A stretch of DNA of 64,000 nucleotides from Ascidia mentula (taxonomy: Eukaryota > Chordata > Ascidiacea > Phlebobranchia > Ascidiidae), in contig OX387201.1 of assembly GCA_947561715.1 (NCBI GenBank), positions 15,080,001 to 15,144,000 on the forward strand, written 5' to 3'. Below the pieces are notes generated by a model. The model had not been told where the DNA came from. It made no database searches and worked only from the letters and a program-made list of their open reading frames with translations. Both the position numbers and the translations under genes were made by a program. This document shows, piece by piece, positions 15,341 through 55,779 of this stretch. How positions within the stretch are numbered: the first letter of the stretch is position 1; every line of letters begins with the position of its first letter.

Positions 15341-18300
15341 ATGAAAATGGGTTACTTACTTCTGTTGGTAGCTTTACTTTTCGGGCTGGCTGATGTGGCA
15401 ATGTGTATCAGGGGTAAGTTGAAATAATTCATAGTAAAGCTTTTTTCAAGAAATTAACTCTTTACATTCTTATCTGGTATTTCTTTGTTGAATTTATATG
15501 AAAAAATGCAAAATCTTTTAATTTTCCTTGCTAAAAAAACATTACAATCAAGTAGATTAATTCTATTGTTTTGCAACAGCGTACAAGCATTTGCATTAGG
15601 ATTTATTTTGCTTTTAGGTAAAACTTGGGTTGGAGGCGCAAGACAGGTGGGCCCAAACCCCCATCCAAACCCCAAAAATGTAAGAGTGGTTTACAGCCGA
15701 TGTTACTCGGGGCTTGCAAACAGGGTTGTTCTCTCAGTAAAGAGTGGACGAAGATATTCCGACACTTTTAATGCTACTTTACTCAATATTTACTCATGGG
15801 GTTTTCGTGCACAAGTTAGAAGAACGGATGCTGCAAGAAATGATTGGGGTCAGTCTCGAGTATACCTGAGATGGTTGGCAAATTTCGGTAAGTAAAAGTT
15901 AATTTCATGTTAGTTTTGTATATAAAAGCTTGTGAAAGTATGTGCAGACTCATGTGCGATTTTTATTATTAAGTTGGGTTTCCTAAAACGTGTGTGCCTA
16001 CGTACCAGCAATAACCTTACATTAAACGTTAAACGGAGACTGAAACAATATTATGCACAATCCTGAATGTTCTATCCTACAGGAACACCAAACTTCACAG
16101 AGAATCCCTGTTACAATGGTGGTTCTTGCACGAACAGTAAACGAGGAAGACGCTGTGATTGTGCCCCTCAATTTGCAGGATTGCTTTGTGAAAGACGTAA
16201 GAACATATATGAAAAATCAGTTGTACTTGAATAATTTTTCAGCATTGAAAAAATTTGAAAAAAATTGCTTTACCTAATTTTTTGTGCTTTTATCGAAATG
16301 TTTGGGTAGGTTTGGTCCACTGCAACCCAAATCCTTGTTACCTGGGAAACTGTACTGAACTGGCAGACGGTTACTCGTGCGCTTGCCCCGAAGGCCGACT
16401 GGGCATAAACTGCACTGACTGTAAATGCTGTTGCTTTTTTTGTTTTATCTCAATACTCCATAATGTGTTAAATCCAATTCAAATATACTTATTTGGTTTT
16501 ATTCAACTCGGCAAACATGGAAACTTTGTTAACATTTTATTCAGCTTTTACTGTTGGGGAAATCGATCCCATGTTTGATGATTTGTTTGGGAAAAGCCTT
16601 CGAAACAATGTCACCTATCTCACTTGCAAAAGCGAACCTGCCTACAATGTTGAACTCTCAGCAAGAAATAACACGTGGGGAAACGTGAGAGTGAAACTGA
16701 GCAACATATTTCAATCGGGATTCAGTTTGGAAGTGTGGAAATCTGATAACAAAGAAACAAAGAAAGAAGCCGACCCAACTGTCATATACTGGAAAGCATT
16801 TTTTCGTAAGCGTTTATACATCCAAGAATTATTTCGAAATACATATTTATGACAATGACGTAACTTTTATATGCGTTTTTATTTTTAACGATTTTTTACC
16901 GTAACTTATATCAATCATGACCTGGCTCTTTCAGATTCGGTCCACATCAATTACAACCCCTGTCAAAACGGCGGTACTTGTCAAAACATGGTAAACGGAA
17001 GTGTCTGCGATTGCCCTTTCCTTACCACAGGAAGATTTTGTGAAACAAGTACGTATAATTCTCACGGTTAACAGAATACTCATATTACGTGATGATACTT
17101 ATCAATAATTACATTTCGATCGTATGTTTACAAACATATGTTAAGTTGTATTAAATCATTTATATGCTCTGTTGTTTTCTTTAGACCTTTTTCGAATAAC
17201 CGTTTTTATGGACAAATTATATTTTTAGACATAACGTATTGTTATTGGGAACCTTGCGGAAATGGAGGTACTTGTATTCCAACTCCAACCGCCTACACAT
17301 GTGAATGTCCGCTATATTTCAGTGGAGATAGATGTTACGACAGTACGTTTACACTTAATTTCCTTTACAAATGATTTGGTTCAAGGCACACTCGTTAACT
17401 ATGCGTTAAATCTTCCATAGACCAAAGATGATGCATGTAATTTTGGCTGAATTTAAGGCTTTTGCAATGAGCAATAACAAATTGTTATGTCCCCGTATAG
17501 CGAAATAACCTGCATCTGATACACAAGCCAACTTGCGTGTTAACTATTGTGTCTCATTACAATTACGTTCCTTACAAGTAATTGCAAAATTATCGCAGGG
17601 GCGGAAGTTTACTCCATTGCGCGATTAGCAATGTACAACATGAGATGGGCACCGAATGGCAGAATAGCGGACATTGCTTACCATAGATGTTATACTGGAA
17701 TCGCTTCATACATCAATGTAACAGCAACCGGCGCATCTTATTCTGAACAACTATTTAACGCCACAGTCACGGAAATTTATACCTGGGGATTCAGTGCCTA
17801 TATACAAAGGGTTGACCAGAGCACAAACAAGTGGTGGCAAGATGTCAATTTGCGCTACTGGGCAGTATTTGGTGAGTGGAATGTGACTGTTGAGTCACTT
17901 AAGGTTAAAAAAAAATAAGTTTGCGGTCACAAGTTTGCGGTCACACATGCTAAGAAAGTTTTAGGTCGTTTGAACGAAACGAGCATAAAGGCTGAAAACT
18001 ATCAATTGTCAATAAAGTATACTGAAATATTTTTTACCAGAAAGCGGAGAGTTTGAAGAAAATCCATGTAAAAACGCCTCTAGATGCACAAACGCTGTTG
18101 AGGAGGGAAGGAAATGTCGCTGCAATCCAGGCTATGGGGGAGAATTTTGCGACGAAGGTGATTTTCCACAAATGTAATAAATAACAAATATTGAAGGCAT
18201 TTCCCACACACCGTGTTTTTCAAAAGAACTTCAATCTAAAGTTAACTTTTGGTGATTGCAGTGTTAAATCATTGTTATCCGCATCCATGCCACAGTGGAA

Positions 18301-21300
18301 AGTGCATCGAATTGGAACAAGACTACGAATGCAGTTGTCCAGAAGGAAATAGTGGTCGCAATTGTGAGATTGGTAAGCCAAAATCACTTTGATGTGGCAT
18401 TTGAGGTTTCAGTAGTAATTACTACCAATTGGGCGAGCTATTGGTTATCGACGACCGTTGATAAGGAAAACATGTTTCATGTGGTACTGTTGGTGATTTG
18501 CACCGAACGGTTATTACCTTTATTGCTAAATATGGCATTTAACTGCATAAAATCTAGTGAAAAGTAGATTGGGTACGAAAACAGATACATCTATATTCCC
18601 TTGCACTTTTTTCCTTATCTCACCTACTATAGGTTCGTTACTACACTGTAGTTCACAGTGTGAGCTTGAGGTGATAGCGTAAAGAAAAGACTCTCAGTCG
18701 CAAGGGTTTTTTTTGTGTTCATTTTATTGCTTTTTTTTACTACTACTGCGTAATTTTTGTAGAAACTGACGATGCTTACTTAAGCGAAATCGATTCTTTA
18801 CAATAAAATCTGCTGACTTCAATCCGAGGCTTGTTGCTTCATTATATATATTCCCTTGCACTAATTACTGTATTGAACATATTTGATGCAGTGACCAAAA
18901 TCAGTGGCAGGATTTCAGTCGGCGAACACCAAAATCCGTTGTACGAGAAAATCGTTGAAGTCGTATATGACCGCTGTAGAAATGGAACTGCATCGAAGAT
19001 TAAAACGGCCACCGAAGGCCAGCCAAGATTTCCTGCCAGATTTGCCACAACTGTTGTCGAGATATTTCCGTGGGGATTCCGCGGCCGAGTTAGGAGAATT
19101 GACCGCGTTCAGAATAGTTGGACTCAAAACCCAACTCTTACTTGGACAGCTTTTTATGGTAGGAACTATTTTTTCATTGGGACTACGTGGCATTGAATAT
19201 ATAACAAAAATCTGACGACATAATAAAAAAAAACTCGTCTGCCCTAACCACGGTAGCAAACGCCAAGTTTTGTAGTTGAAACGTATGTAGCGTCAATATT
19301 AATGTCATAAATCCATTTTCTTAGGTTTGTCACTGCTGTTATAGAGAGGGTGATATTGCGTGTATTCTGTATTCACCACAAAGTTTATTACCGTCTTTGA
19401 CCCACAGATGCCCCCGAAATGTTGGAAACCCCGTGCTTTAACGCGACGTCTTGCAGAAACACAGCTGCAGGGCGCCAATGCCGATGTTCTGAAGGGTATG
19501 GAGGGGAATTTTGTCAAACACGTCAGTTCGATCGAATATTTCAATATTTATAGTAGTGGACGGGAAGTTGTTAAAAATATTGTTAACAACCTCATTGCCG
19601 TGTTTCGTAGCTGACCTGGACAAAGTCCAACCTATATAAACCACATTGGTAATTCTGTGCAATTCTGCAGTCTGAGAAAAGGCATTTTGCAATGACCGCA
19701 TGATTAACAACTCTTGAATACTCTGTGAATTGCTGAAACGATTGTGTAAGATAATTGTCTCAAAAACATGGACTTTTTCTGGTTAAATTTGGCTGTTTTC
19801 CGCTATGCTGGCCCATAGTTTGTTCAGCGGCCTTGGGAAGGGGAATTGAAAGAAAAAGTTAACATCCCTTTTATCTACTTCATTATTTTACTGATATAAA
19901 ATGTTCTTTCGTTATGCTTCGTCATTACACTAATTTTAGGTGCGTTACTGCAAACATACGTATACGTATACGCTTTATGACAACAAATCATACTTGTGTT
20001 TTAGCCCTCAGATACTGCCAAAATCATAATTTGTGCGGCTATGATGCGTGTGTTGAATTGGACGATGGATACAAATGTCTATGCCCGGATGGTTTTGCTG
20101 GCGTCAATTGCAGCTACAGTAAGTCGGTTGTTTTGAAAGTGTTCAACGCATTTAACGTTTTTATGTAAATGGCTGATAGTACACGGTATACGCTTTATCA
20201 GATGCAAACGTTACCAACCGATCATTGTTTATCGTTTCAGGTTTTGTACATCAAATTTTATTGATTATATATTTGTAGTAATATTTCGATGCTAAAGGTG
20301 TTTTGTTTGCCACTTGGTGCCACAAAATGATTTGACTGTTCTTGTGAGCCTCAAGCCAGGAATTTAGGAACCATTGCATTAGTTGACAAGATACTAGAAA
20401 ATGTTTATCCAGTCTGTACTATATTTTTTGTGTCAGTTATGAGGTAGAGGTGCACTAAAATACCATTCTTTTTTATACAGTCAGGAATAAATCCATTAGG
20501 CAAATACTTTTCCAAAGTCCCATTGACGTTCAATTTAATATTTTTTTGACAGGAATATCTCAAGGAGAAAATTATTTTGTCTTCCATCCAAGTGGAGGCA
20601 TCAGCATAAACAAGACCATCAGTTACCCCAGGTGCATGATGGAAAATGCGACACGAATTGAAGTGACCTTACAAGATGAGGTCAAAGGTTTATTTGAGTA
20701 CAAAGTTGTTGGAATCCACCAATGGGGATTCGTGGTAAACCTGGTGAAGCGAAACAATTATGTAAATTCCTTCAACATGGTCATTTACTGGAAAGCTTAT
20801 TTTGGTGAGATCATTCTAAAATTATATGTTGGTTTCTTTTTAAAGATTGAGTTTTGTATCTTGTAAGTCTGCAGTACGCCGTATCAGTCTCTGGTCTATA
20901 ACGTCTGTAGTTGCTGGTGCACTTTTTGTGACCTGACTGATTGCTATATCTTAATGGAGACTGGGGCTCTATGAGTCACTACATGACCTGTGTTGATCAC
21001 CTCTCCGTGCGTTTTTTCTTTCTTTTTTTTAGCGCCGTTACCACATTGCTTATCTCACCATTTGCAGCACGTATAAAAAAAACGTATAAAACTTGTTTGG
21101 AACCAGCTTTCGCGAGACACTCCTCTTTCAATCAAGTAAGCTTTTAAGCAATCAGTCAAGTCACAGAAAGTGCACAAGAACCTACGAAAGTAAAATGTTT
21201 TCACCAACGATAGTGCCATGTACAGTAACCGCTAGAATTTACAGGAAAAGTCCAGTTTCACGCTAATCCATGTTTAAATGATGGACGATGCACCAATTCG

Positions 21301-24300
21301 GCGGAAGGAATATATTGCGTCTGCGCGCAGAGGTACTCAGGAGCCCGTTGTGAAATATGTGAGTAAATTGTTTTACAGTACAATTCGAAATGAACTGCAT
21401 TACAAAGCGAACTTAACATGAATATTCCTATTTCGCTTACTTAATTTAAATCGAGCTTGCTTTGACGAAACCTTTATGACCATAAATAAAACGATATCGC
21501 AATGTAAGCCGCTTTCCACTTCACCTTTTCAATAAAGAAAAAAACGTTCAACTCTGGGTGGACCACAACAACAAAAAAAGATAATTGTTAACTCCGCATA
21601 TGGGTGGGTTTAACCCCACCACTAATGACAAAAAAATCAATGGATATAATTTTCAGTTAAGCCATTTTGCGCCTCAAGCCCCTGTCAACACAACGGAACT
21701 TGCAGTGAAACACGTCATGGACCACAATGTACCTGCACGCAAGAGTACCAAGGCAGCTACTGCACAGAACGTACGAAGAAACTTGTACCTGACGAAAGCA
21801 ATTGATTTTGGAAAAAATTAATTTAGAAAATTTGTCTGTTAGATATTGAAGTATTAAGAACATTTTTGTTTGTTTGTTTTAGGACTATTTGTAATTCTTT
21901 CACTAAAAGTCATGCGCCCTTTTCCTTTAACTCTTATAGATACAGTGTACGTTCCAATGCATATTAATTTACCGACTGAAAATTGTAGTTCCTTTTTATA
22001 GATTTTGCCATAACTTGCAAGGCGGTATCTGTATAAGTCCGCGTTGTGTAACACCTCTTGTACTTTTGTTGTGCGCATCGCTTATTATTAACTATATTTT
22101 CAGGTCCTACGTATCAAAGAAGTCAAAGAATTCCGTCGCTTTACGTTTACGAACCTCCGTATCGGGTGGTAATTAACGTGTCTTACCAGGAGTGTTTGAA
22201 CGGTAAAGCACGGGAAGTGAGAATCGTATCGATCGAAAACTACCGAGCGCGGTGGGATACAACATTTGTTTCAAAAGTCCTTTCCATTCACCCATGGGGA
22301 TTTCAGCTAGAAATTAACAAAACTAGGCAGTTATATGGCGATATGGGGATTTTTGAAATCTACATACGATACATGGCGATTATGGGTAAGTGTTTTACTC
22401 GACTTCTTGTGCAGTCGATTGAATCTTTTTCTCACCCCCTTCTAAAGTACATAAATAAGCTTCGCTTGGTTAAGTAAAACACTTTTAAGCCTACGCAATT
22501 CCCAGCAACACCAACACTGTGAGACCGAAAATCATTGTGTTAAAGCACAAAATACAAGTTTACGTATTTCTTGCAAGCTGTATAAAAATAAGCTACTAAG
22601 GCAAAGATTTGTTTATGCATAAGAAAATTATATGTTTATCTTATTGTTTATTATTTGTGCCCTTCACAGTGAAAATATACAAAGAAATTATGTTCAGCAA
22701 AACCCGTTGCTAAAACGTGTCACATCACGATTTCTATCTACTGCAACATTTCATTTGTAACCGCTTGAGATATGGCGGCACGATTGTAATAAAAACCCTA
22801 AAAACTTAAAGGATATATTAAAATACCATGTTTGTATTGAAACCACTCTTTTTCTTTAAGACAACGTGCGTTACCGATATACTTTTTGTGGACGCCACAG
22901 CTACTCTTGCGCAAACAACGCTGAGGTTCGAAATAAATGCCATTGCCACCGTGGTTGGGTTGGAGAAAGGTGTGAAAAAGGTACATCGACCTTATAAATA
23001 CCCAGTAGTTATATAATCTGCAACTGCAGTAATTTAACACTTTATATTTTTAAAATGAAGCTATTACTCTACTATTGGAGTAGCATACGTTTGTAACACC
23101 ATAGAGCCATATCCAGATTTAGCAATCTTTTATAGGCTTAACGTATATTTGCATAGCTTGGAAAAAGTGATTCCTAGGACTCATCATGATGATGCCGTGT
23201 AGTCGAAACTTTTATATTCTAAGAAACAGTATCTTGGCTGGATGATTTAGCAGCAATCTATGCCAGTCCTGGGAATCACTTTTAGCAAGAATTTCAGTGC
23301 TTTCATTCCAAAACCAACTCAAGTTGTCAGTAGGAGATCTATGCTTTTTATAAACATTGATATTTGCAGAGGTTGTGTACTGTTATCCAAACCCATGCAA
23401 TGGTGGAGTGTGCTCAGAAGATGAAAGCGGTTATAATTGCGCATGCCCAGACGGAGCGACCGGACGCAATTGCTCAATCGGTAAGATGTTCACCTTTTGC
23501 CCCTTGTACAGTTTCCGTTCAAGCAGAACCCTTTAAAACAGCGGCACTGATCGGCAAAAGCTGAGCTTTTACCAACTTGGTTAAAGTTTTATTCTGCAAG
23601 TTGGTACTGTTTTTAGGTTACGCGACTGGACAAAACAGTCTTAACATCAGCACTTGGGAGTCGGAGTCATTAAACATGAGTGTGACATACGATTCTTGCA
23701 AAATTGAAAATGCTACCCATGTGGAATTATCCATTGATGGCGAAGTGTCTTCTTTGGTGCAAGTGAAACTTCAGAAAATATTTAATTGGGGTTTTGTAGT
23801 CATTTTATCAAAACGGACTGCTGTGAAAATAAACTGGAGTTTAATACCGATTCGACTCGAATGGAAAGCCCGCTTTGGTAAGATTTAGTTGTACCTCGAT
23901 GGATGGATGTGAATCAATACGACACAGAGTGTTTTTTGTAACAACTCAGTAACATTAATGGTGTTTTCCGCACCCAAGTCACTTTGTTTCTTGCAGGCAA
24001 TATGCATACCGGTGGTAGTTTTTGAGTAAAAAATCATTCGTAATATTCCCTTTCTGCATTACTAGTAAAATCCTGATTGTTGAACATGTTTGTTAGCGGT
24101 AAATGTTTAGCAATATCTGTTGCTAGCAATTCTGTAAAGAAATAAAGATAGATGTGGTTTGTCGTTAATCAGTTTACAATTCCGACACATATTTTTTAGT
24201 CTGCAAAGAACGGAGGTTAGTTTCTGCAAGCGTACATACCGTTAAACCGTATTCTTAATTTTCCCGCAGAGTCATTATATTTTGAAAACAACTGCAATAA

Positions 24301-27168
24301 CCAAGGAGTATGTATAAATACTGAAAATGGGACTGCATGTACATGTCAAGGACGTTACACTGGAAAATACTGCGAGACAGGTCAATTAGTCCCTATCCCA
24401 TTGTGTTTTTTTTTGTAGTTTTTGTCTTCTCGTGGTGTAATTTGAACGGCACATTTGTTATTAGTTCTCCCATATTGTCAAGGCAAGCCTTGTTTGAACA
24501 ACGCAGTATGTGAGGACCTGTCTTATGGATATAAATGTTACTGTGCCCCGGGATTTGGTGGGGATAACTGTGAATATGGTATGTATGTGTTTGCGTTTCA
24601 AACAAAACCCCTGTTAATAGCGTTACATACTTTTTGTCACGATTTTCAGTTCAAAAAGTAATCCATTCAAAATAATTTGCACACCGTTCTAATACAGTTA
24701 TTAAAATGTTTTCATTTCCACTAAATAAATCGACCCCGGACTTTGATAGCTTAAAATTAAAAATGATTCTTTTTGCATTTTCTCGGTATATTTTTATTTG
24801 CATATTTATTATATAGCTCAAATCAATTAACCTAAAATACTTTTTAATTAAGGTAACTAAGTCATATCGTTTTATTGTAAGGTGTCCACAGTGAAATATT
24901 GCTGCTTCCGGTAGAAATGGATAGAACTTACACATACAAGTATGTCGTGTTCAATTCCTGTTACGTCGAAGAACCAATCCGTGTAGATTTGGAAGTGTTG
25001 AACCTGGGGAATTATCACCAGTATTTTGCCCCAAGAGTTTATGAAAAGTACCGAAACGGCTTTCGTTTTGGTGTTTACAGAAATTATTACCGACATGTCG
25101 TTCAAACCATAACTGAGTATCGAATCCGCTACTCGGCAATTTTTGGTAAGTACACCGTTATCCTATTGCATGATTGCCAATTGTGGATCGTATTTCCTTC
25201 TGCAGAAAAGTTGATTAGGTTTGTGATCAAATATAAAACCGTTCGTGACTAAAAACCAAAATTTGTTCGTATTTAAGAATAGTCCTTACATCTTTCATAG
25301 CCTTTACCTTTGTGCATCTCGCACTTACAAGTAATTTAATTAAGATTTCATCAGTGCAAATGTGTATCGCAGCGTCGACAAACTTTACCGACAATCCCTG
25401 CAAAAACAATGCTGAATGCACTGTTACAAACAAGGATGACTTTTTCTGCAACTGTACTAAACCATTCCGTGGTCAACTTTGCCAAAAGAGTAAGTTTTTC
25501 TCCTCTTTGAAACGGTTGATCACTTTTTTAGCAATTAATTTTGTCCAGAGATAACTAAATGCTCATCACGACCGTGCCGAAACGGTGGTACATGCAACGA
25601 CACGGAAATAGGTTACAGGTGCACGTGCAAAGATGGTTATAAAGGATCGCATTGTGCACGAGGTAAATGGATTAGTATATAGAAAATACAATATTTGTAT
25701 TTATGTGATAGTGTGTCGCGAAATCATGTTCACATCACAAACAAGTGAAACCAAACATGTTTCGGCTCATTTTAGTTTGCCATGAGTTCTTGCAAATAGG
25801 TTGATTAGTCACCAAATATCGACAACGCATTATAACACACCAATTAGCATGATAAGTTATACACCACTGCCGATTACAGTTCATTAAACTAAAAATAAAT
25901 TGCGTTTAATTGCATTAAAAACAAATTATTATTTCAAAATATTTTAATTTTTGGCAAAAAGTGTTGTAAGGTTTGGGATTGTCAACAGGAAGCGTCTAAT
26001 AACATGTGAAATAACATTTCCACGTTGCGACGCACGCGTCTCTAAAAATGGGTATTAACGTAAATAAAAGTCAACGCCAATCACCGTAAAAAATTTTTTT
26101 AAATTTAAGATGTTTTGAAAAAATATAAGCATTGTGAAAAAAATTTTCAAACCTGTTTTTACGTTATTGATATTTACAAACTGTGTAATAGCTTGAAAAT
26201 AACGCGTCTCATCATTTTTTCTTAAGTTCGATTTACCGGAAATTATTCATTGGAAGTAAAATCGGGTCGGGTTGCCTCAACAACAGTTAATGTTGTTTAC
26301 GACGACTGCCATAACCGATTGGCGAAGGAGATCAGGGCGGAAGCTTTCATCAACAAATCTGCCAACTTGTTTTTAAATGTGGAAAATGTTCAAGTCCAAC
26401 CGTGGGGATTCACCGCTACTGTTCGACGAAAAGATGGCCGAAGTAGTTGGGGCACATACAGGATATATATAAAATACAATGCATGGTTTGGTGAGTATTT
26501 TGTTTTTGCGGAGGTCCTCAATTGATCAATTTTTAGGCAAGATTTGTTGGCACTTGCGCGGAATAGTATTTCTAAAAAAAAATTGAGGGAAAAACATCTA
26601 GAAATGAAATATGCGTCTATCACAACAACATGTCCGCACTTATTTTATTTGAACTGATTTTCACATTTAAAAACTGCTCTTGGTATTACTAGACGATAGA
26701 AGTACCCAGGGTGAGATGTGCTATAATGGTGGAAGATGTGAAAACGTATTAAATGGACCCATCTGCCATTGTAAACCTGGATTTATAGGAAGACAGTGCA
26801 AAAAAGGTAAATAACCAAACACAATAAATCAAATTCTCACCAAAATTTAAACCCATGTTTGTTAAATTACAATTGTGCACTTTAGTTGACCATTGCCTAA
26901 GCAATCCATGTTACAACGGTGGAAAATGTCAAAATGATGAAAAAACTGGATTTACATGTGAATGTCTTGATGGATTTGTTGGAGTCAAATGTTCTGTTGG
27001 TTAGTTTTTTACTGAAGGAATCACATCAACGATGTCGTAAATCGTTCTGTTCCAAACGCACATTGTCTCACAAGGTTGTATTTTTTTACAGATGTAGCTG
27101 CTTTGAAAAAATCATCATATTCCTCTGACACGATTGACGTCGACAAATCGAAAGATATGCTTTATTAA
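15341..27168 (+). CDS. Gene A: secreted nine-repeat WGF-domain/EGF protein (~1531 aa)
   Basis: The model has 29 coding exons. Exon 1 (15341-15413) encodes the signal peptide starting [15 protein letters not shown]. Then come nine identical three-exon units (one WGF exon of 252-282 nt, a 5-Cys EGF exon, a 6-Cys EGF exon), and a last exon (27092-27168) with a 25-residue acidic/Ser tail ending DKSKDMLY. Every intron is phase 1 and every internal exon is a multiple of three, so the 4596-nt reading frame closes without a break. There is no transmembrane segment or GPI signal, so the product should be secreted or matrix-bound, and it carries many N-x-S/T sites. The WGF domain is not one I recognise; EGF repeats usually act as calcium-binding or spacer modules. 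AATAAA lies at 27280-27285, 112 nt after the stop. Function is unknown; an extracellular ligand or recognition protein is plausible. Confidence 0.9.
15618..18372 (+). other. Gene A modules 1-3 (exons 2-10)
   Basis: WGF1 15618-15887, EGFa 16083-16196, EGFb 16310-16420. WGF2 16545-16805, EGFa 16935-17048, EGFb 17229-17342. WGF3 17599-17871, EGFa 18041-18157, EGFb 18262-18372. WGF1 is the best match to the consensus ([24 protein letters not shown]). WGF2 is a divergent type: the Trp of the signature is replaced (QSGF) and the C-terminal part reads VIYWKAFFR. Its EGFb ([15 protein letters not shown]) is of the same subtype as those following the divergent domains of gene B. Confidence 0.9.
18892..21770 (+). 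other. Gene A modules 4-5 (exons 11-16)
   Basis: WGF4 18892-19158, EGFa 19408-19521, EGFb 20005-20118. WGF5 20553-20804, EGFa 21245-21358, EGFb 21657-21770. WGF4 is canonical ([22 protein letters not shown]). WGF5 is shorter (84 residues), has HQWGFVVNL and is closest to WGF7. The intron after WGF5 contains a Penelope-like tail fragment. Confidence 0.9.
20870..21190 (+). mobile_element. Penelope-like element tail fragment in gene A intron
   Basis: A stretch reading GGAGACTGGGGCTCTATGAG, then the ATCACCTCTCCGTGCG phrase, a T-run and AGCGCCGTTACC, is collinear with 3845-4000 in the remnant at 3.64-4.14 kb. It lies wholly within the intron between 20804 and 21245 and is broken. Confidence 0.6.
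22104..26999 (+). other. Gene A modules 6-9 (exons 17-28)
   Basis: WGF6 22104-22385, EGFa 22861-22980, EGFb 23370-23480. WGF7 23617-23877, EGFa 24270-24380, EGFb 24465-24578. WGF8 24882-25145, EGFa 25373-25489, EGFb 25549-25662. WGF9 26227-26490, EGFa 26693-26806, EGFb 26886-26999. WGF8 is divergent (RNGF in place of xWGF). Everything from 23,373 onward is present again from 51,882, so the duplication breakpoint lies inside the EGFb exon of module 6. Confidence 0.9.
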
Positions 27169-27279
27169 CACGACTTCGAGCGTTTGCTATCCACACTCAA
27201 TGTATAAAACCGATTAGTGTATTTCGTATGATTTGTGTGTCCGTTGTCTGTCACATGTACATTGAGCCAGTTTTACTTG

Positions 27280-27285
27280 AATAAA
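27280..27285 (+). terminator. Gene A polyadenylation signal
   Basis: An AATAAA hexamer lies 112 nt downstream of the stop codon; the same hexamer is preserved in the duplicated copy at 55780-55785. No other candidate lies closer. Confidence 0.5.
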
Positions 27286-27424
27286 TAGTAATGCATTTCA
27301 CGTTTCGCGAAAAAAATTGTCGAAACACTATTTTGGTTAGGTACACATCTCACGGATTTACACATAATTTTAAGAAGAAAAAGACTGGCCCATACTGTTG
27401 TTAAGATTGTCATGTTTAAAAGAA

Positions 27425-27456
27425 GACGTTTCGGCAAAAACTTATGCCATCATCAG
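27425..27456 (-). ncRNA. Hammerhead-like motif, Penelope type
   Basis: Read on the minus strand: CTGATGA (27456 down to 27450), a GGCA/TGCC stem II with an internal loop, then GAAACGTC (27432 down to 27425), whose self-complementary ACGT would form a dimeric helix III with cleavage after the C. One extra nucleotide sits between the core and stem II. The same phrase occurs at 48.5 kb and, through the segmental duplication, at 55925-55956. Confidence 0.45.
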
Positions 27457-27585
27457 TTTGAATGACGCGGTTGGTGTAGCTTCATCATCATAAGGAGCGG
27501 ACCTGACGAACGTCACAGATAAGGCTCGCGCGGGTGGTGACGTCATGTTGTTATCGGCCACACACCACTTGAGGGCGCAGTATGC

Positions 27586-27669
27586 GACGCAAACCGCAAA
27601 AGTACACAGTAAACAGCATGTTTCTTTTGTGTTTTATGCCGTTTATTGTGTACTTTTCCGTTTTGCGTC
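27586..27669. repeat. 29-bp inverted repeat with 26-bp loop
   Basis: The arm 27586-27614 (starting GACGCAAACCGCAAAAGTAC) is complementary, with few mismatches, to 27641-27669. The duplicated copy at 56086-56169 has a more decayed right arm. It may be the end of a small non-autonomous element; no open frame is present. Confidence 0.6.
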
Positions 27670-27784
27670 TTCTTAGCTCTATTTCTTAGTCTTTTTTGTC
27701 GCGCAATCGCAGCAATTATCTTTTTGTTTGTGCCGCGACTATGATATCGCCCTATGTTTTTGCAACTGTTTCCACAAATAATCA

Positions 27785-27880
27785 GAGATCATGGTTTTCG
27801 GTCTAACAGATCACAAAGTGATCTCACAGATCTTGGCTTTTGGTCTCATAGATCATAACATCAGTCCACCAGACCAAACT
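27785..27880. repeat. Short direct repeat of AGATC-rich unit
   Basis: Two diverged units of about 48 bp, beginning AGATCATGGTTTTCGGTCT and AGATCTTGGCTTTTGGTCT, follow each other around a GATCACAAAGTGATC palindrome. This is low-complexity regulatory-looking sequence or transposon debris; no function is assigned. Confidence 0.4.
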
Positions 27881-28429
27881 TAGTCCAAAAACAGAGACCA
27901 TCGGTGACGCGACCTACAGCCAACATAATGTCAGAAAAAGTAAGTTGCTACGTCGTAAGGCGGCCGAGTAACCCGCTTTCATACTTTTGTCAACTAACAT
28001 CCCTCTGGTCAGAACGAGACTCCTCGTGACAGTCTTGATGTTGGGTTTCGCAGAGATACAATTTCATCAAAACCTTCCGACAAAACATTTCTTCGCGCCC
28101 CTTCAAGTACTTTATTACACGACATGCTTTGCAAAACATTAGCAATAGACACCCACGCAACATGTAACAACTTGAAACAACCTCCGGACATAGCGGTACG
28201 TCTGTACTTGCCCGGTGCGATAGCCAGCAAAATCAGCATTATATTTAGGACGGGGATGTTAAACTAGGATTTTGATCATCAGAAAGGAAATTACTTTTGT
28301 GATGCTGTTGTAGTTTCTAAAAAGGTTATTGGTGCCATGAATACAATTGCATTATTTCGGTAAGAACGGATTTGTGCATACAACAGTATATCTTGGAAAT
28401 ATCAACTTAAATAGCGCATACAAATAAAT

Positions 28430-30080: not shown

Positions 30081-30084
30081 TTGC

Positions 30085-33832: not shown

Positions 33833-35394
33833 CTGAAGTAAAGATTGCCATTTTAGTTATGTGTATAGCATTTATTCGTGCGCCGTTATTGCAATTATTA
33901 TTGACTAATACAAATAACTTGACAATCGGTGTAAAGTTTTGTTTCTACAAATTTATTTGGAAATTTGCTCGTTGCTTATCACCCACGCCAAGTCGGTCGA
34001 TTTTTGTTTGGTTTATTTTATTTAAATATTGTTAGCAAACTTTCTTACTTTGCGTACTATTTTCTGAAATCGTGTGTTGCGCAGTAGACCAGCTCCAGAT
34101 AAGAATCACACAAAAGAGCTTTGGGCAGTTTGAGGAAATCATTTTCTAAGAAATAAAAAGTGTATCTGTTGAAACAGGATTGGTTTCAAATTATAGAAAT
34201 ATTTGACGATGAAAATATACAATCTTCGTGGAGGTGCTGCCTTTTATATCCGCGCTCAAAGTAGACATCTTTTGTATTTAGTTTTTTTAAGAAAGATGAC
34301 GATGTAGTGCATTTCAAACTAATTCTGCAAATGACGCGTAAACCGTCACAACAATTTTTTCGGAAACATTTAAATAACGGGGCACTAAAAATCATGTTCA
34401 TTTTGCTGTCCATATCTTATAGACCTACGAGATACAACTCGGTGTGGAATTCCACATTTTCAAACAAAAAGAATTTAAAGCTTACCTTGAAGAATACTTT
34501 TTAAACAAGAAATGTGATTCCTGAACAACTTGAAACAGTATAATGTCCAACATATAGTAAAATCATGAAATAAATTTAAACACGTGTTTTATACATAAAG
34601 TCATACCGCTAATACGTATTTAATATTGTTGGGCATGCAACAAGCTAATATTAACATTTATCACGTTAGAAACGCAAAATTCATATACTATGTGAAAACA
34701 ATAAACAGTATTTTGTTACAACGGAAACTGCAGATTAAATGCGCTTATAGACCTTCATGTTTAAGCTGATCATAACAGTCTGGATGACTCTCACAAGGTA
34801 TACCTTCCCTCAATTTATACATTTAATCTATATCCGTTGTGGGTATGGCGCGTCATGTGCCCCGTGTGGTTAAATCCAAAATAAGACAGCACAGCGTCGT
34901 ATTTCACCACTCACCAAGCAATTCACCGACTCATATATCCCATTTTTATTTTAACCAAAGCGCACTGAGAATCATTAGTAAAGAAAAGCGCAGGTAAAAT
35001 CTGTTTTTCACGTGCGGCGAATCTGTCCAAATACGATGCATGCGGAAACGCTGTGGGAACAAATCCGATAAAAGCGACACAAGTCGTGCAAACATACTTT
35101 TTCTGTGCTGTCGGTAAGGACGCTGTGAAGTGCGTGGACTATCGTAAATAAACAATGCCAAATTCACATGTGAAAAATAACAATAGTGTATGCAGTGTCC
35201 CCACAAAATATGAAAAATCTACAGTTTGCCTTCTAGCAAACACTTTAGTTGGTTTCAAACATGTTTTTTTCTTGTGGTTATATTCACGACAAGCCATTCA
35301 AGTCTGATAGCTTACAATCAACCACACGCAAACGCACTGGTGTGTAATACAACACATGTGGGACGGCTGTTTCTGGGTGGGATCAACATCTTAA

Positions 35395-38850: not shown

Positions 38851-39029
38851 AAAAACGTTGTTGGCGCTATTGCTTATACAATATTCCATTTGCAGCATTG
38901 CCGTTGGCATAAAGGACCAAAGTAAAAATTCCAGCACTGCTTATGGAAAATTTATCGTTCAGCTGCCGTATGGCTGCTGCAAAATTTAAGTTAAAAACGA
39001 CACTGATAGGCAACCACTTGATTGGAAGT

Positions 39030-39035
39030 TTTATT
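39030..39035 (-). terminator. Gene B polyadenylation signal
   Basis: AATAAA on the minus strand, 58 nt beyond the gene B stop codon (39093-39095). This is the only canonical hexamer in the first 100 nt downstream. Confidence 0.5.
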
Positions 39036-39092
39036 AACAAAATGTACAGTCCAGATTACAGAATTATAGTTGATATTGTAATATGGGTATCT

Positions 39093-42000
39093 TTACACAA
39101 TTTGCGTTTCGCACAGGGCTCCAGTAAACCCGTCCGCACATCCACAAACTCTTCCATCAACTTGATTGTAGCAAGTTCCTCCATTTTGACAAGCAGGTAG
39201 AAACTTTTCGGCACCTAAAAAATATCAAACATCACCATAGGCAGTAGTTTTAGTTACCGAAGAACATTTGATATCGCGTTGACGCTGGTTTGTCGTTTTT
39301 ATACCTATTTTGTTTGTATTGTTTTATTTATTATTACATTAATAAACCATTTATACAACTGCAGTGTAGTCCCAACATCACATTTATTAGCGATGTTTTG
39401 ATAGTTCATTACGAAAAGTGGATGAAAAATAACTTTTCGAGAGGCCACTTATAAAGTTGCAGGTTATTTACACATGTTGTAGCCTTTTCTTAATTACCAA
39501 AAGTAACAAATACCTAAACAAATCATATCTTCGACAAATTATAACCAAAAAGTACGCACTGAAGTGTGCCGTCCAATATAACTTCACTGTGGTTTGTCCC
39601 CAACCAGATTTCGTGATATCAGTGCGTTTTACTGCAGCCCGGAAGCCCCAAGGAAGCACTTCAAGGACAACTGCACTGAAAGTGTCGCTGTATCTGCTCG
39701 AACCTCTCGCAGACACGCTCACGTTTGTTGCCACCGAGCTCATGCATCTGCTGTATGCCACATCGATGGATTTAGAGTAAGGGGGAACACGTGTGAGGGA
39801 TCCGATCCTTTTTCTTCCATTTGTTCTGATAACTGGAGAATGTACAAATGTTTTCATGTTATTGTTTGTGATTGTAAAATATATATGTACAACAAAATAT
39901 GAGATCACATGTTTTTGGCGATTTTCTGCGATAAATTGAATTAAACAATTTTTGTATGTGGAGGCATTGTTTTGATTTTTTATATAATTTCTTAACGAAA
40001 CAATAAGTCGAAACTGTTGCCCTGTGTATGCAGCTCAAATAAAAGTATTGTTTTCCTTCAATTAAAGACAAATTTTAGGTCCATTGCTTCAACACTATGT
40101 GTTTGCAAAAGTTGTAGAAGCATTAGAGGCACTACAACTCAACCTATGTTATAAACCTTCCTAATTGGTGATATTTGATATGGTAACTTGCCTATTTCGC
40201 AGTTTTTTCCAACTCTGTCTTCGTTACATGTACAGTTATAACCGCTATCATATTCTGTACAAGAACTGCCACTTTGGCATGGGTTTGGGTAACAATGTAC
40301 CATTGCTGTAAAAAACATATAGTTTTAAATACAAAAGATATTTATTAATTCAGACTGAAAGAATCTGTATCATTAGGACATATTTATCTAGGAAATTCTT
40401 GAGTGAAATTATCTTTCGAAAATTTTCGTGACAAAAAATGAGAGGCAGCATATGGTAAAGTAATCGTACCTGCTTCGCAAAATTCCCCCTTAAATCCTGG
40501 ACGGCAATGACACTGTCTTCCATCAGCTGTGTTTGTGCATCCAGTTGCATATATACATGGGTCGCGAAGGTAAGCGCGCGTTTCTAAAACAGACAGTAGG
40601 AAAGATCAGTTGTGGTTGAGCTTAATGATTATTACGATTATTTTACTTGCATATGCCGAAGGCAAAGTATCATTTGTAAATAAAACTACTTTCGGAAGGA
40701 ACGTAGAACAATAGCAAGGTACAATACAGTAGAAAAAAACTGTACTGTATAGTTATGCCATATCTTCTATGTGATTTTAAGTTGCCCTACTTATGAATGC
40801 TAGTGTCCGCAATCACTTGGATGTAAAATATTTACCAAATATGGCTCTGTATCGCATGTAGATGGTTTGGTCCCATCCTTCTCCGGGACGATCAGTCCTT
40901 TGTACGAGCGCTCGGAATCCCCAAGGATATATATCGAGAATTGTGTGGTTGAAAGTATCGGAATAAGCTGTTGAGCCGGCAACAGTTGCGTTGACCACAT
41001 ATGCAACACCAGTGTAACAACGGTCATAAACAACGGTGACGATTTTTCCGTATGGTGGCCCAGTGACAACTGGTAACGAAGGTATGTGCTCCAACTTTCG
41101 AATGGCTGGTTCTGATCAAAACATAATTTGTCACAAATTGTGCAGTGATTCCTATTACATTTTTTTGTATTTGACGCAGAAATTTACCGCCACGTATACT
41201 ACATTATTTCGGGTTTGTGATGCAATGCTTTTTTCAAAATTTTGTTTCCACTTTTTGCAACAAATAGTATTAGTCATAATAATTTTAAGCTCTTACTAAA
41301 TGCTGAATCACGCTATGAATAAATATATACTTCAATAGAGTCTGGATTACTTACCAACGTGGCATCTGTCTCCTGTGTAGGGTTCTGGACAATTACACCT
41401 GAAGTAGCTGTAAGAGGGTACACAAGTTCCACCGTTCATACAAGGTGACGACGCGCAATGGGTTTGTCCTAAAAATGCGTGAAAAACACTTAATTTTAAA
41501 TTAAAACTATTCGGAGGCGGTTTTACGTACGAGTTTCGCAATATCGACCAGTTGTACGGATTCGACAATCGCAAATACTTCCATTCACAGCGTTAAGGCA
41601 AAACCCTCCGTTCTGACACGGGTTGAAAGAAAAGTTCACAGAATCTAAAACCAAATAGTTAAAAATAACCATTGTTCTGTTCGCGTAGAATGCAAGAGAA
41701 AGGAATTCTGCAAACGAAAATTGCCTTAAATATAGGAAATTTTCTACAGAAACATCAAGCAACCGTGGCTATATAGGAAATGCAGCTAATCACATTCCCG
41801 TGCAATTATCGTTGGAATGTTTACAGGGTGCACACTTCATTAAAGCATACGATGTTGCCTCAGACATATTATGGTAATTGATCACAGGTAACTTGTATTG
41901 TGCTTTTTTGAAAAAATGCCAAGGCGTTTACTTGTTCCTGAACTTACTGAAATAAGATTCCACATTAAGGGTAACTGCCTCATAGAGTGGATTTGTTCCT

Positions 42001-43243
42001 GTGTTCTTTCTCCAAACTTTCACTTTGAAGCCCCAGCTGTAAGCTTCGTACACATTCACTCCGGCGTTTTGACCGTAACCACTCACACCCGTAGCATTTA
42101 CTTCGTAAGGAGCTTCCCTCATGCAGGAGTTGTAGAGAATTACTGCGGTTGTGCTCGATGCAGTTGTGTTTTCAAACGTAACGGGCGTGCGGTAAACATG
42201 GTAACCTGTGCAAATTGTTTGAGATTGATTTGTGCTGTTACTTTGCTGGAAAATAAATGTAAATAAAAACTAAATTCCTTAATGCCACCACGCAAGGAAT
42301 CCAAACAGAAATTAAACAACAATGGAAAGTTGCATATAATGAAACGTGGTCAAATCCTAACGCACAAAATCAAGTGCTATAGATGTTGCAAAGGTGACTT
42401 CAATATTTCTGCAAAATGCTTCTTAAACTACGAAAAAAGTAAATCCGACAATTGTTACCTTTGTCACAGTTCTTTCCCCCAGTTTGCCCTGGACAGGAAC
42501 ATTGGTAATCGTTTTCAAGTTCGGTGCAACTTCCTCCGTTACATGGGTTAGGATAGCAGTGAATCAAAGCTGATCAAGAATATTATTTATTACCAGCTAG
42601 AGAAAAAGTTGCAAAAAATTTTTTCGAAACGTTTTGAAAGTATTGCAGGCATTTTATAAATTTACTATATTGCAATTTTGTAGTGCTTTCATATACAGTA
42701 ATCGAAATATTATCATCACAAATTAATTGACCATCCTTACTATACGCAATGTATTAGCTGACTTACGAGTTTTGCAGAACTCTCCGACAAACCGTTCAGT
42801 ACAGTGACAGGTTTGTCCGTCCTCACTATTGGTGCAAAGTGCTCCATTTAAACAAGGGTTGCTTTCATAATCGTACGAATCTGAACACATAAAGTTGTCG
42901 TTTTAATATTTAAGTGGCAAAATAATCTATCCATTATAAGTTACAAAAAGACAAAATCAATAAACATTCTTACCAAAATAAGCCGTCCATTGCATTTCTA
43001 CATCACTTTGTCCCCAATTAGTTTCGTGGCTCCTTCGTACCATGGATCGAAATCCCCAAGCAAATATTTCGAGGATTTCCACTTCGAAAGTATCGGAGTA
43101 TCTTGAAGCGCCACTAGCGGTCGCTGTGACCTCATTAGCAACCCCGCTATAGCAACGATCGTAACTCACAACTATCTCTTTGCCAGGTTCGGACGAATAT
43201 CTGTGAGACCCTACCCGTGCAGTACCTTGTATCCATGGCCCCT
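39093..43243 (-). other. Gene B modules 5-8
   Basis: In coding order: WGF5 43243-42974, EGFa 42880-42767, EGFb 42569-42459. WGF6 42205-41948, EGFa 41644-41531, EGFb 41468-41355. WGF7 41111-40836, EGFa 40583-40470, EGFb 40305-40192 (GC donor). WGF8 39832-39560, terminal EGFa 39214-39093. Module 6 repeats the divergent type of module 2 (SWGFKVKVWRKN), and module 7 repeats the type of module 3 (starts EPA, as EPG in module 3). The second half is therefore a duplicate of the first at module level. Confidence 0.9.
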
Positions 43244-46200
43244 CTGGAAGAAAATAATATTGGAAAGGAACCAACCCGCAGTCAGGAGAGACATGGTTAC
43301 CGCAAAAAAATATGTTCATATTCAAAAGTATTTTGTTTTGGTTTTCAATATAATGAAGCAAAGATATGAAGAATAATAAAACTTGTCACAAGTTCTTACG
43401 GATATCGCAAGTTTTTCCTTTCCAGCCTTTCGGGCAATTGCATTCATAACCACCCGCCTGTTCAATACATTCACCTCTCTGGCATGGGTTAGAAAGACAA
43501 TGAACAAGTCCTAAAAATAGGCGCGTAAATTTAAGTAAATTATGCTTAACATCTTCAGGCAATACATTTAACGAAGTCAACGTAAACGAAAATTTCAATT
43601 GGTTGAGAAAAATGATCTGTTTTATACTAAACCGTTAATAAAATGCAAGCAGTGTTTGAAATTTCATGACGTATTAATTCGAACTCACGTATTTCACAAA
43701 ATCTTCCTGTGTACTCCGGTGAACAATCGCAAATACGTCCTTCCATGCTGTTGCGACAAGTTGCACCATTTTGGCAAGACAACTCCAAACTCGACTTTAA
43801 GTCTGTGGCATGAAGGTTTTTCGCTTAGCTTCACGATATTCTAACACCAGTCCAAACAAATATAATTGAAATTCTAAACAACATTTCTTACCAAAGACAG
43901 CTGTCCAGGATAGCTGAACCCGACTTTGACCCCAACCTTCTCTAGGTCTGTCGGTTCTTCGCACCACGGCGGTAAAACCCCAAGGTTGGTTGTCGGTGAC
44001 GGTGGCGCTGAAAGTATCGCTGTATAGGCTCTCACCGGCCGCTGAAACTTCCACCCTGCTGATATTTTTGTCCTGACATTCATCGTAAACAACTTTGATG
44101 ATTTTTGAATAGGGTTCCACTCTTTCCTGACTCCCCACTCGCACCGATCCACTCATGCTTATGACTGTAAAATGATTTAGTACGTATCTTAAATGACGAC
44201 TGATACACATTGGGAAAACTATTGAGCCAAATCGCCTCTATGCTAACAAAGCAGAATTCATTTTTAATTGAATAAGGAGATTGTGTAAAAAGCGCTCCAT
44301 AAAAGATTTCATTATGTTTATCTGCTATTTCATGAGCCAATGTACAATTCATTGCACAACCCATGTGAAACTCTTATCTGGTTTCTTGCTTACCTGTCTC
44401 GCAATGCTTGCCCGTCCTATTATTTGGACATGAGCAGTTGTATCCGTTTACATATTCCGTACAAACGCCAGTGTTACAGGGATTGGGAAAACAGTAAACC
44501 ATCGCTGAAAAATAAATTTTTGTGTTAACCGCAACATGCCATTGTGAAATTGTTTGAAAGCCTATTTTTTTCCAACCTGGAGTGTAAGTTTGTTTAGTAT
44601 TTTCCTACTTAAGGCCTAGAGCTCCAATTGGAAACAATTTGTGAAATTGCTCACCAAGTTCGCAAAACTCTCCTTTGTAGCCTGGATCACAGTGACAAAC
44701 TCTTCCAGATTCGGCATTGTTTGTACAACTTGAAGAATGTAAACACGGACTTTGTTTAAATGCCTGCGTTTCTAAACATAAACCTCTATGTTTGTTAAAG
44801 TAACGATACAGTGGTATTTCATGTACATGATTCAGATTTACAAGGGAAATCAACTTTTAAAACGTTCAAATTTACGTGGGTAATATGTAACTTACCAAAA
44901 AGTATCGTGTATTTGAGATAAAGGGTCTGCCCCCATCCTTCACGACTATCAGTTCTCTGAATGAGTCCACGAAATCCCCAAGGGTATATTCCGAGCGTGG
45001 TGTAGTTGAATGTATCGAGATATAAACCTGATTTTACCACTGTGGCATTGACTGATAAAGCAAGACCACTCAGGCAGGTACCATAGACAATTTCAACCGC
45101 TTTTCCGTATGTGGGCGGTCTTGCTCTTCGCAGGCTTCCGACATAATAACGTGAACGCATTCCGGGTTCTGAAAAAAGACCAAAGCGGCAGGTTGAGTCA
45201 GACAAGCGACCATGGTTAATAAACTAAGCAGGGCACATGAATACGTGCACACAGTTGTACATCTGTACAGTTTGTTTATGTCGTGTACAATCGGTCTGCT
45301 TTCCATCAAAATTAATGTAATGCAGACTTCACTGCTGGTAGGCGTTATTCTCTTAGCGCTGGAGTAGTAAGCTAGTCTTGTTTGTATTCATAACGTATTC
45401 TTTGTTCTTTTTGCCATAGAGTCAAACAGATTATGTGTGGTTTTGTTTGGTAGCGAGATTTTTGATCAAATATGCTGTTGATTGGTGTGTTATGTCTATA
45501 AAACAACGTTACCAAGTTCACATCTATCACCATCCCATCTTTCTGGACAAATGCATCGGAAAAAGTCATTTTCAGGAATACAAGTTCCTCCGTGCATGCA
45601 TGGCGATGACGCACAATGCGTAATTTCTTCAAATACAAGAAAATGACATAAAACGAACAACTATTAACGATCCTTACATAAAAATGTCAAAGTGCCACAC
45701 AAAAACAAAACCAACCCGACATTCCATGGCAATAATTAGTTCTACAAATTTTTGTTGGTGTATATATTTGTTATAGTTCGTAGTTTAATCGAGGATTTAC
45801 TGATTATACATTTGGCGCCCACACACTTCTCTGTATTGGAATAATGCATGAGAAATAAAAAATTGCTTACGTGTTTCGCAGTATCTTCCTGTCGTTCGAA
45901 CTGGACAAACACAGATTGATCCGTTTGCAGTGTTTTCACAAGTTCCACCGTTTTGGCAAAGACTGCCTGGTGGGTTGAGTTCGTCTGCGTACAAAACATG
46001 TTTATCATGCGGTAAGTCGCAGACATGATATATAACAGAAATATTAAACGCTGAGTTATGCAACGCACTGCCTTTCACCGTTTATTGTCAAAGCTATGTC
46101 ACATATTAGGTAAACTACAAATTTTGGATTGTGTTGTACACATATCGTCTTACCGTATACTGCAATCCATTCAACTATCGCAGTTTCAAAACCAGGATTT

Positions 46201-47768
46201 GTTCCCAGATCATTCAATCTCCAAAATTTGGCTCTAAATCCCCAGCTGAAAACTTCCAACGCCTTTCCACCGACGTCACGTGACACATTTGATTTGACAG
46301 CGAGTCGAACTTCGGATGGCGAAACACTTTTGCACTCCGTGTACAGAATAGTTTTCGTCATGCTGTTTGTGCCCTCTTCGAATGCAACACTTAACACACC
46401 GTCGTAATACGCTGCAGGAAACAATACAAAGAATTAAGTGTTTCCTTTTTGTTTGAAATGAAAACATTTTGAGACTGATTAGAGTAAGTTATGTTGTTTT
46501 TTTGCTTAATTTCAAGCCATGAGCAACTGAGAATAACACTTGCCATTGCCGCACTTTTTCCCTGTTCTTCCAGGCCGACATGTACACTTGAAATCATCTG
46601 TAAGTTCTGTGCATTCGTCGTAATTGCAGGGGTTCGGGTAACAATATACGTAACCTGAAATGCTTTGTAGGTTAACCAGCAGACATAGGTAATCTATACA
46701 ATACAGTGCTTTGTGCGTGTGTTTCATTACGGAAAGAAAAGTATTTTTGTTATACACCTTGCTGATCCTGTTTTAAAGCTATTAGTTTGTGTGTATGTTA
46801 TTACGTGAAGAACAGGTCAGAATCTTCGTTCTTTGGTTAATGCAGACATTATGCACTATTGCCACATGCCGAATTTACTCGAATGCAAACGAGTTGCAAA
46901 GAAACTTCCCGAGCTCTTTGATGACTTCCTATTACAAATACTTCACCGTACTGTGTTGGCAGTATTTCCCGTAGTTCTCTTGATTGCATGAGCAAGTCCT
47001 TCCATTCTCGCTGTTGTCGCATCTGGCTTCATTTTGACACGGATTATTATAGAATTCGGGAGTTTCTGTTGAAGAATGTGCTCGTTACATTTCTAGAATG
47101 TAATAAGTTTGCTCTGATGAAAAAGATCAAAATTTCCGCTTACAATATTATTGGACAAGTACATGCAATGACTTTTACCTCCGACATACTTATGCTGAAA
47201 CGAATTTGATACCAAGTTGTTTTATGAGCATTACAGGCAAAGACGTTATGCAATATTTTACCGTAGAAAGCTTTCCAGTTCATATTTACTCCTCTTTGTC
47301 CCCAATCATTTCTCTGTGCATCCGTACGCTGAATAACAGCACGGAATCCCCACGGTTGTATCTCAATTATTGCTGCAATAAAAGTGTCCGGCCATCTTGA
47401 TTTCCCGGTAACAACAGCAGTTATGTTTTTTGCTTCGCCAGTGTAGCATCGGTTGTACACAACAGTAATATTCTTGACGTCGCCACGCCGATTACTGCCA
47501 ACGTTTGTCCTGCCGTTGTGATAATTCACGCCTAAAAATGCATTGAACAAGTGTAAATATTAAATTGCTCTTTTTTTGAATTACAGTGTGTCGTTGTCAA
47601 AATATTTAATGATTAATGTGAAATGGTCGCAGCCAATCGAGGTAACAATTTGGTACGAATAACTGAAAATATCGACTGTTCACTTTGATTCTTACAAAAC
47701 TTACCATTTTGAGTTACAGCCACTTGCAAAAATGCAGAAGCAATAATCAGAACTCCAATCATTGCCAT
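39093..47768 (-). CDS. Gene B: secreted eight-repeat WGF-domain/EGF protein (~1307 aa)
   Basis: The model has 24 coding exons, convergent with gene A. Exon 1 (47705-47768) encodes the signal peptide starting MAMIGVLIIASAFLQVAV. Seven full WGF-EGFa-EGFb units follow, then an eighth WGF plus a single 5-Cys EGF that ends the protein (CETQIV, stop at 39093-39095). All introns are phase 1; 3924 coding nt close in one frame. Two introns use GC donors (after 46544 and after 40192). There is no transmembrane helix or lipid-anchor signal. Ending on an EGFa keeps the cysteine balance: the last WGF has one Cys and the last EGF has five. A TATA-like TATAAAA lies at 47833-47839 on this strand. Paralogue of gene A; same unknown extracellular role. 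Confidence 0.9.
43400..47531 (-). other. Gene B modules 1-4
   Basis: In coding order: WGF1 47531-47262, EGFa 47065-46952, EGFb 46654-46544 (GC donor). WGF2 46411-46154, EGFa 45984-45871, EGFb 45626-45513. WGF3 45168-44896, EGFa 44771-44655, EGFb 44504-44394. WGF4 44164-43892, EGFa 43802-43689, EGFb 43510-43400. WGF2 is the divergent type (SWGFRAKFWR, no WGQ). WGF1, 3 and 4 carry PWGF and W-G-Q. EGFb of module 2 has the CASSPCMHGGTC form, matching module 6. Confidence 0.9.
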
Positions 47769-55666: not shown

Positions 55667-55779
55667 CACGACTTCGAGCGTTTGCTATCCACACTCAATG
55701 TATAAAACCGATTAGTGTATTTCGTATGATTTGTGTGTCCGTTGTCTGTCACATGTACATTGAGCTCCAGTTCTACTTG

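Follow-up and report, generated by a model that had tools for sequence, protein, structure and literature searches.

The 64,000-nucleotide stretch of the Ascidia mentula genome analysed here (contig OX387201.1 of assembly GCA_947561715.1, positions 15,080,001 to 15,144,000 of the forward strand; hereafter the window) carries two genes, gene A on the + strand (15341-27168) and gene B on the - strand (47768-39093), which encode repeats of a three-domain unit. In the mitochondrial COI frame of this genome (L049), 18 AGA or AGG codons are read as glycine, two of them ahead of the probable protein start; such a code (NCBI table 13) is the mark of ascidian tunicates. Each unit consists of a domain with a Trp-Gly-Phe signature, termed WGF, followed by two EGF-like domains, EGFa and EGFb. 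We consider it quite probable that WGF has an H-type-lectin fold, is stapled by its single cysteine to the third cysteine of EGFa and is repeated nine and eight times, respectively, in the two secreted proteins.

Gene A starts with a signal-peptide exon (15341-15413, 24 protein letters), continues with nine complete units and ends in a short tail with a stop codon (27092-27168, read by eye). Unit A1 comprises a WGF exon at 15618-15887, an EGFa exon at 16083-16196 and an EGFb exon at 16310-16420; here and below, EGF coordinates are those of an exon scan unless otherwise indicated. In the same order, the exons lie at 16545-16805, 16935-17048 and 17229-17342 for A2; 17599-17871, 18041-18157 and 18262-18372 for A3; 18892-19158, 19408-19521 and 20005-20118 for A4; 20553-20804, 21236-21358 (acceptor possibly slightly downstream) and 21657-21770 for A5; 22104-22385, 22861-22980 and 23370-23480 for A6; 23617-23877, 24270-24380 and 24465-24578 (start computed from exon length) for A7; 24915-25145 (alternative acceptor 24882), 25373-25489 (chosen acceptor; 25355 would give one cysteine more) and 25549-25662 for A8; and 26227-26490, 26693-26806 and 26886-26999 for A9.

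Gene B, read on the opposite strand, has a candidate signal-peptide exon (MAMIGVLIIASAFLQVAVTQN, 47705-47768), seven full units and a final WGF-EGFa pair ending in a stop. Its WGF, EGFa and EGFb exons lie at 47262-47531, 46952-47065 and 46538-46655 (ends approximate) for B1; 46154-46411, 45871-45984 and 45513-45626 for B2; 44896-45168, 44655-44771 and 44394-44504 for B3; 43892-44164, 43689-43802 and 43400-43510 for B4; 42974-43243, 42767-42880 and 42459-42569 for B5; 41948-42205, 41531-41644 and 41355-41468 for B6; and 40836-41111 (alternative acceptor 41105), 40470-40583 and 40189-40305 (overlooked by the exon scan, ends approximate) for B7. B8 has a WGF exon at 39560-39832 and no EGFb, the gene ending after its EGFa in a terminal exon at 39093-39214, read by eye, with the protein end GALCETQIV. 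Exons of both genes are in phase 1 at both ends, so that units can be shuffled and repeated. In the terminal exons of the two genes, read by eye, no membrane segment was seen.

Regarding the cysteines, the counts on which the preliminary description of this DNA had built its argument held up once the phase-1 splice acceptors were placed. Every one of the 17 WGF exons (A1-A9, B1-B8) encodes exactly one cysteine; a second one suspected in the WGF of B6 was rejected, being located before the splice acceptor. Gly-Phe is present in 17 of 17 domains and Trp-Gly-Phe in 15, A2 having SGF and A8 NGF, while the Y-x-x-C context claimed for all of them is found in 16, A8 reading F-N-S-C. By reading, the EGFa of every one of the 17 units has five cysteines and no Cys1; the exon scan supplies 15 of these cases, B8 was read by hand and A8 depends on the acceptor. 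In A8, one acceptor yields five cysteines and the one preferred by the scan adds a sixth, 12 residues before Cys2 and off the Cys1 position. If the intron between WGF and EGFa of B5 were read through, 31 extra residues including two cysteines would result. All 16 EGFb domains can be read with six cysteines: 13 of these readings come straight from the exon scan, A7 and B1 depend on the acceptor and B7 was read outside the scan. For A7, the scan picked a shorter exon with five cysteines and an alternative acceptor gives six; for B1, a seventh cysteine appears only if a far-upstream acceptor is used. The loss of Cys1 is apparent, for instance, when EGFb (LVHCNPNPC) is compared with EGFa (TPNFTENPC). 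EGFa thus departs from the six-cysteine pattern of EGF-like domains, with only Cys2-Cys6 in 17 of 17 units by reading. With respect to the EGF-like domain PF00008, it retains Cys2-Cys6 and passes the Pfam cut-off of 21.5 bits in A1 (26.7 bits for A1 EGFa and 24.1 for A1 EGFb, the two exons scanned), but its Cys1 is gone.

EGF domains pair their cysteines 1-3, 2-4 and 5-6, and the loss of Cys1 thus leaves Cys3 alone without a partner. A bond between the WGF cysteine and Cys3 of EGFa is the simplest account of this pattern and, we infer, the most likely one. The compensating-cysteine argument stands, and it is reinforced by paralogs elsewhere in the genome. A search of the 195.8 Mb genome with the single protein B5, accepting matches at E up to 1, gave at least 150 matches (150 scored of 204 candidates, some of them fragments); contig C69 holds 128 of them, and C2, C52, C67, C71 and C73 together hold 22. 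The pattern first described in genes A and B is confirmed in those genes, but the family is far larger than these two.

Cysteines were surveyed in the window and in 48 loci (L001-L048), where 132 near-complete matches collapsed to 52 rows sharing less than 85% identity. Since L025 at 2 is a truncated part of an exon that also appears as L039 at 4439, 51 distinct domains remain. According to the exon scan, a one-cysteine WGF is followed by a five-cysteine EGF in 37 of them, and a five-cysteine EGF comes after a three-cysteine WGF in one and after a two-cysteine WGF in two. Six cysteines were counted in the next EGF of two domains (A8, by acceptor choice, and L036, in which the scan skipped a five-cysteine EGF that is present) and ten in that of L038, a CA-repeat artefact. 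For the remaining eight, the scan found no EGF (B8, L042 at 9544, the second domain of L031, L040 and four C73 domains); B8 is followed by the terminal exon, L042 at 9544 lies near the end of its locus and the second domain of L031 does have a five-cysteine EGF. In total, a five-cysteine EGF comes next in 40 of the 51 domains, and 39 of these 40 EGFs match the spacing of Cys2 and Cys3 while lacking Cys1; L037 is ambiguous. Since all WGF units are paralogs, these counts measure retention under divergence and not independent events.

This shared ancestry is what would favor a reading in which the WGF cysteine and Cys3 of EGFa are both unbonded and free, the loss of Cys1 being a relic copied along with the repeats: with every unit a paralog, the pattern was inherited rather than acquired many times. 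However, both traits, the single cysteine of WGF and the absence of Cys1 from EGFa, are retained down to 15-18% identity among the window domains and in the C69 and C71 clusters, whereas secreted repeats would hardly be expected to keep free thiols unchanged, and we regard this reading as highly improbable. Several paralogs do weigh against an intramolecular bond as a general rule. Two of the 51 domains have two cysteines with a five-cysteine EGF behind them, an uneven sum; behind two further two-cysteine domains the exon scan found no EGF; and no EGF was found behind five distinct one-cysteine domains on C73 and C2 (L033, L034, L035, L038 and L047). The odd sums would require a partner elsewhere, and they lend some weight to the proposal that the WGF cysteine and the orphan cysteine of EGFa are each bonded to another chain, forming disulfide-linked oligomers. 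H-type lectins are oligomeric, Helix pomatia agglutinin (HPA) as a hexamer and discoidin II as a trimer according to the available part of the source (PMC5712786). Two distinct inter-chain bonds in every repeat would nonetheless leave unexplained why, over 39 distinct domains, the EGF without Cys1 is the one directly behind a WGF cysteine, and EGFb of the same chain retains all six of its cysteines; such oligomers appear unlikely to us, and the bond within the WGF-EGFa pair is preferred.

Some of the paralogs are peculiar in other respects. Three domains on C52 and C67 (L036:4888, L037:3217 and L046:1946) have three cysteines in WGF and more EGF repeats behind, the first of which has five cysteines. 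Their cysteine positions, counted from the exon start, and a seven-residue spacing hint at a swap in which Cys1 was kept and Cys3 lost; the assignment is ambiguous because A6 likewise has a seven-residue Cys2-Cys3 spacing, and the swap was rejected as proof. A two-cysteine subfamily occurs at 15.5 Mb on C69 (L040:1855 and L041:1856, with CYKLPPLC and CYKIPPEC), L041 having a five-cysteine EGF behind and hence one odd cysteine. Two of the C73 loci contain cysteine-rich stretches with a sub-threshold likeness to DUF7495.

Regarding the fold, AlphaFold2 models of the WGF domains of B4 (the first modelled) and A7 (the second) were built from an alignment of the 17 window domains only. The B4 model (predicted local distance difference test score, pLDDT, 93.1; predicted template modelling score, pTM, 0.81) has six strands, at residues 2-7, 18-24, 33-41, 50-58, 61-68 and 82-89. 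The A7 model (pLDDT 90.3, pTM 0.78), although the two domains share only 26% identity, has the identical six strands and a short helix. The five-strand beta fold proposed earlier is thus abandoned for six predicted strands in both models, which would form the six-stranded antiparallel beta-sandwich characteristic of H-type lectins.

Foldseek searches of the PDB point in the same direction. For A7, the three best matches are HPA structures (2ccv, 2ce6 and 2cgy; probability 1.00, E 0.009-0.012, template modelling score by query 0.61-0.63), followed by the R1 pyocin fibre, Helix aspersa agglutinin and SLL-2. For B4, the order is R1 pyocin fibre, phi297 tailspike, Helix aspersa agglutinin (4q56, third, E 0.054) and LKA1 tailspike, with HPA sixth to eighth; both agglutinins have probabilities of 0.99-1.00, and SLL-2 ranks below HPA with 0.84. 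When predicted viral proteins were searched, the 50 matches listed included 12 named tail fiber, two minor tail and two H-type lectin domain, many of the names being uninformative. Both models place WGF in the same fold class as the terminal domains of pyocin fibres and phage tailspikes (6cxb, 6cl5, 4ru4, 4ru5 and 4mtm); these receptor-binding domains are, however, parts of phage or pyocin fibres and lack EGF, and their likeness to WGF is one of fold. As far as the accessible parts of the two reports go, the R1 pyocin domain resembles the AP22 fibre, HPA and discoidin II (PMC6116203) and the LKA1 domain is discoidin-like with a counterpart in HPA (PMC5701251).

The preliminary description had recognised no known family in WGF, a view to be overturned by a clear match to a known domain. 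By sequence (Pfam, PHROGs and PDB) the claim stands, whereas by fold it yields to the likeness to H-type lectins in Foldseek, a match that is clear in probability (0.99-1.00 for the Helix agglutinins over both models) but neither in E-value (0.009-0.14) nor in the Pfam H_lectin profile. The H_lectin profile (PF09458) was reported for none of the 17 window domains and none of ten divergent paralogs, in a scan with an E limit of 10 whose filters remove most matches above about 0.1. A search for H_lectin in the animal's own genome gave no match, and control genomes gave none either; a search for more H-type lectins in the collections plasmids, phages, viral_contigs and genome_contigs likewise found none.

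As to kinship, profile-profile alignment by hhalign of WGF with HPA, Helix aspersa agglutinin (HAA), SLL-2 and discoidins I and II gave P of about 0.03. The score of HPA against either WGF profile was reached by 3 of 2,000 shuffles and that of HAA by 6 or 3 of 2,000 depending on the profile, 1,761-1,841 of the 2,000 decoys being reported at all; as HPA and HAA are 96% identical, these results are one observation. In the joint alignment, the Gly-Phe, the strand-2 aromatic residue and the final W-x-A of WGF and H-type lectins are in register. Nine residues are invariant among the five reference lectins (F37, P45, V47, D55, R63, G75, F76, W83 and V88 in HPA numbering), with a mixed outcome for WGF, in which G75-F76 is retained, a tryptophan aligns near W83 and Arg63 is unmatched. 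An equivalent of Pro45 is found in three of the 17 window domains (A8, B2 and B6) as well as in L032, L036, L037 and L041. In the same alignment, the most H-type-like paralogs are those of C52 and C67 and of C69 at 15.5 Mb (SGSVNVGDN, FCQIPS and YKLPP).

Several results weigh against this kinship. Sequence searches of Pfam, PHROGs and the PDB with WGF were empty or at chance level, BLASTP of the three-cysteine L037 domain against HPA gave no match, and no match reached E < 0.001 in the three Foldseek searches (two of the PDB, one viral), the discoidins being weaker still (probability 0.30 at best for B4 and 0.87-0.89 for A7). Column shuffles reached the hhalign score in 2 of 200 cases with the 17-domain profile and in 3 of 200 with the 52-domain profile; the reversed profile scored 13.8 against 15.7 forward for the former and 15.2 against 14.7, hence higher than forward, for the latter. 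The score of SLL-2 was reached by 144 or 108 of 2,000 shuffles and those of the discoidins by 488-859. Finally, Arg63, common to the five reference lectins, has no aligned arginine in WGF.

These points bear on whether WGF might be a fold of its own, merely resembling the H-type lectin sandwich, with no homology and sugar binding being irrelevant. This would agree with the absence of a matching sequence family, with the weak profile-profile signal, for which the reversed control was equally good with one of two profiles, and with the modest E-values of the Helix agglutinins. Yet models of two divergent members rank these agglutinins at or near the top with probabilities of 0.99-1.00, Gly-Phe and W-x-A stay in register in the alignments and so few shuffles reach the HPA score; we hold an independent fold to be rather unlikely. 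As the sequences give kinship thin and mixed support, WGF is called here an H-type-lectin-fold domain, predicted to be a very divergent one, and is not filed as a member of PF09458. Compared with H-type lectins (HPA, HAA, SLL-2 and the C-terminal domains of discoidins I and II), WGF aligns the Gly-Phe turn, the strand-2 I/V-x-F/Y and the final W-x-A, but it lacks the shared arginine, has a longer loop before the last strand, apparently uses its one cysteine outside the domain and is arranged in tandem with EGF.

Assuming an H-type-lectin fold for WGF, a working of the module can be proposed. The lone cysteine would lie in the loop after strand 2 and, judging from the strand order of the B4 model, the Cys28 loop, the WGF turn and the C-terminus would sit at one end of the sandwich. 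The chain would leave the sandwich at this end to enter EGFa, whose Cys3 would follow about 15-17 residues further and could bond to the WGF cysteine. WGF and EGFa would in this manner form one presumably rigid module with EGFb as spacer, and each protein would be a chain of such lectin-EGF bricks linked through EGFb, with nine modules in gene A and eight in gene B. The repetition of the module suggests multivalent binding, and the products of both genes are most likely multivalent secreted lectin-like proteins. A role in multivalent glycan or matrix binding, in defence, the tunic or the egg coat, is a guess, and so is a glycan ligand, because WGF does not retain the arginine that the five reference lectins share.

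H-type lectins are on record, in the parts of the reports available, from snails, bivalve transcripts, bdelloid rotifers and a Toxoplasma microneme protein (PMC5549309, PMC8878817, PMC9218915). A literature search covering subscription journals only marginally, and its sources in part, found no H-type lectin from a tunicate or ascidian; under the same coverage of journals, no inter-domain disulfide between a lectin and an EGF was found. The protein of PMC10794152 is stated, in the available portion of that paper, to lack inter-domain disulfides. The C-type lectins of rotifers that carry a single EGF (PMC8878817) resemble WGF-EGF in that a secreted lectin-type domain adjoins an EGF, but they have a different lectin fold and the EGF is placed before the lectin, and a missing EGF cysteine is not mentioned in the accessible text. 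If our reading is true, the H-type lectin fold extends to a chordate multigene family overlooked by profile libraries, and the WGF-EGFa pair is a clear case of a domain-domain disulfide formed by sharing one EGF bond. It is tempting, if rather speculative, to imagine that ascidians possess a large array, expanded in tandem, of secreted proteins for recognition, based on an H-type-lectin fold whose lectin domain supplies half of the first EGF disulfide. The resulting rigid lectin-EGF brick would recur many times in each chain, and the gene cluster on C69 would harbor a chordate lectin repertoire directed at microbes or self.

The window bears traces of further duplications. A block of 11.7 kb, 98% identical, is present twice (23370-35037 and 51879-63535) and includes, besides an open reading frame of 1051 amino acids without introns, the units at the 3' end of gene A. 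The second copy therefore includes a third, partial WGF-EGF gene at 51.9-55.5 kb, which has the identical cysteine pattern and again the acceptor ambiguity of A8. Behind gene A, at 28544-29224, lies a decayed, inverted partial copy of gene B (43126-43799, from the B4 EGF to the B5 WGF exons). No positive selection was seen when nine nearly identical copies of the region from B4 to B6 were compared: the ratio of non-synonymous to synonymous polymorphism (pN/pS) at variable codons is 0.26 for the B4 and 0.52 for the B5 WGF exon and 0.12-0.41 for the B4 and B5 EGF exons, values of 1.39 and 1.57 for B6 having been discarded as their rows were frame-shifted or misaligned. EGFb of B5 is disrupted in one of the nine copies.

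The intronless open reading frame of the duplicated block lies on the - strand at 30085-33240 and 58588-61743 and encodes, in the first copy, which was scanned, seven stretches of LDL-receptor class A repeats followed by a rhodopsin-type seven-transmembrane domain. Upstream of gene A, a short tandem array at 12728-13051 gives self-matches offset by 20-base steps, and a gene resembling adhesion G-protein-coupled receptors, with a GPS motif and a secretin-type seven-transmembrane domain, is located at 8642-10370 on the + strand.

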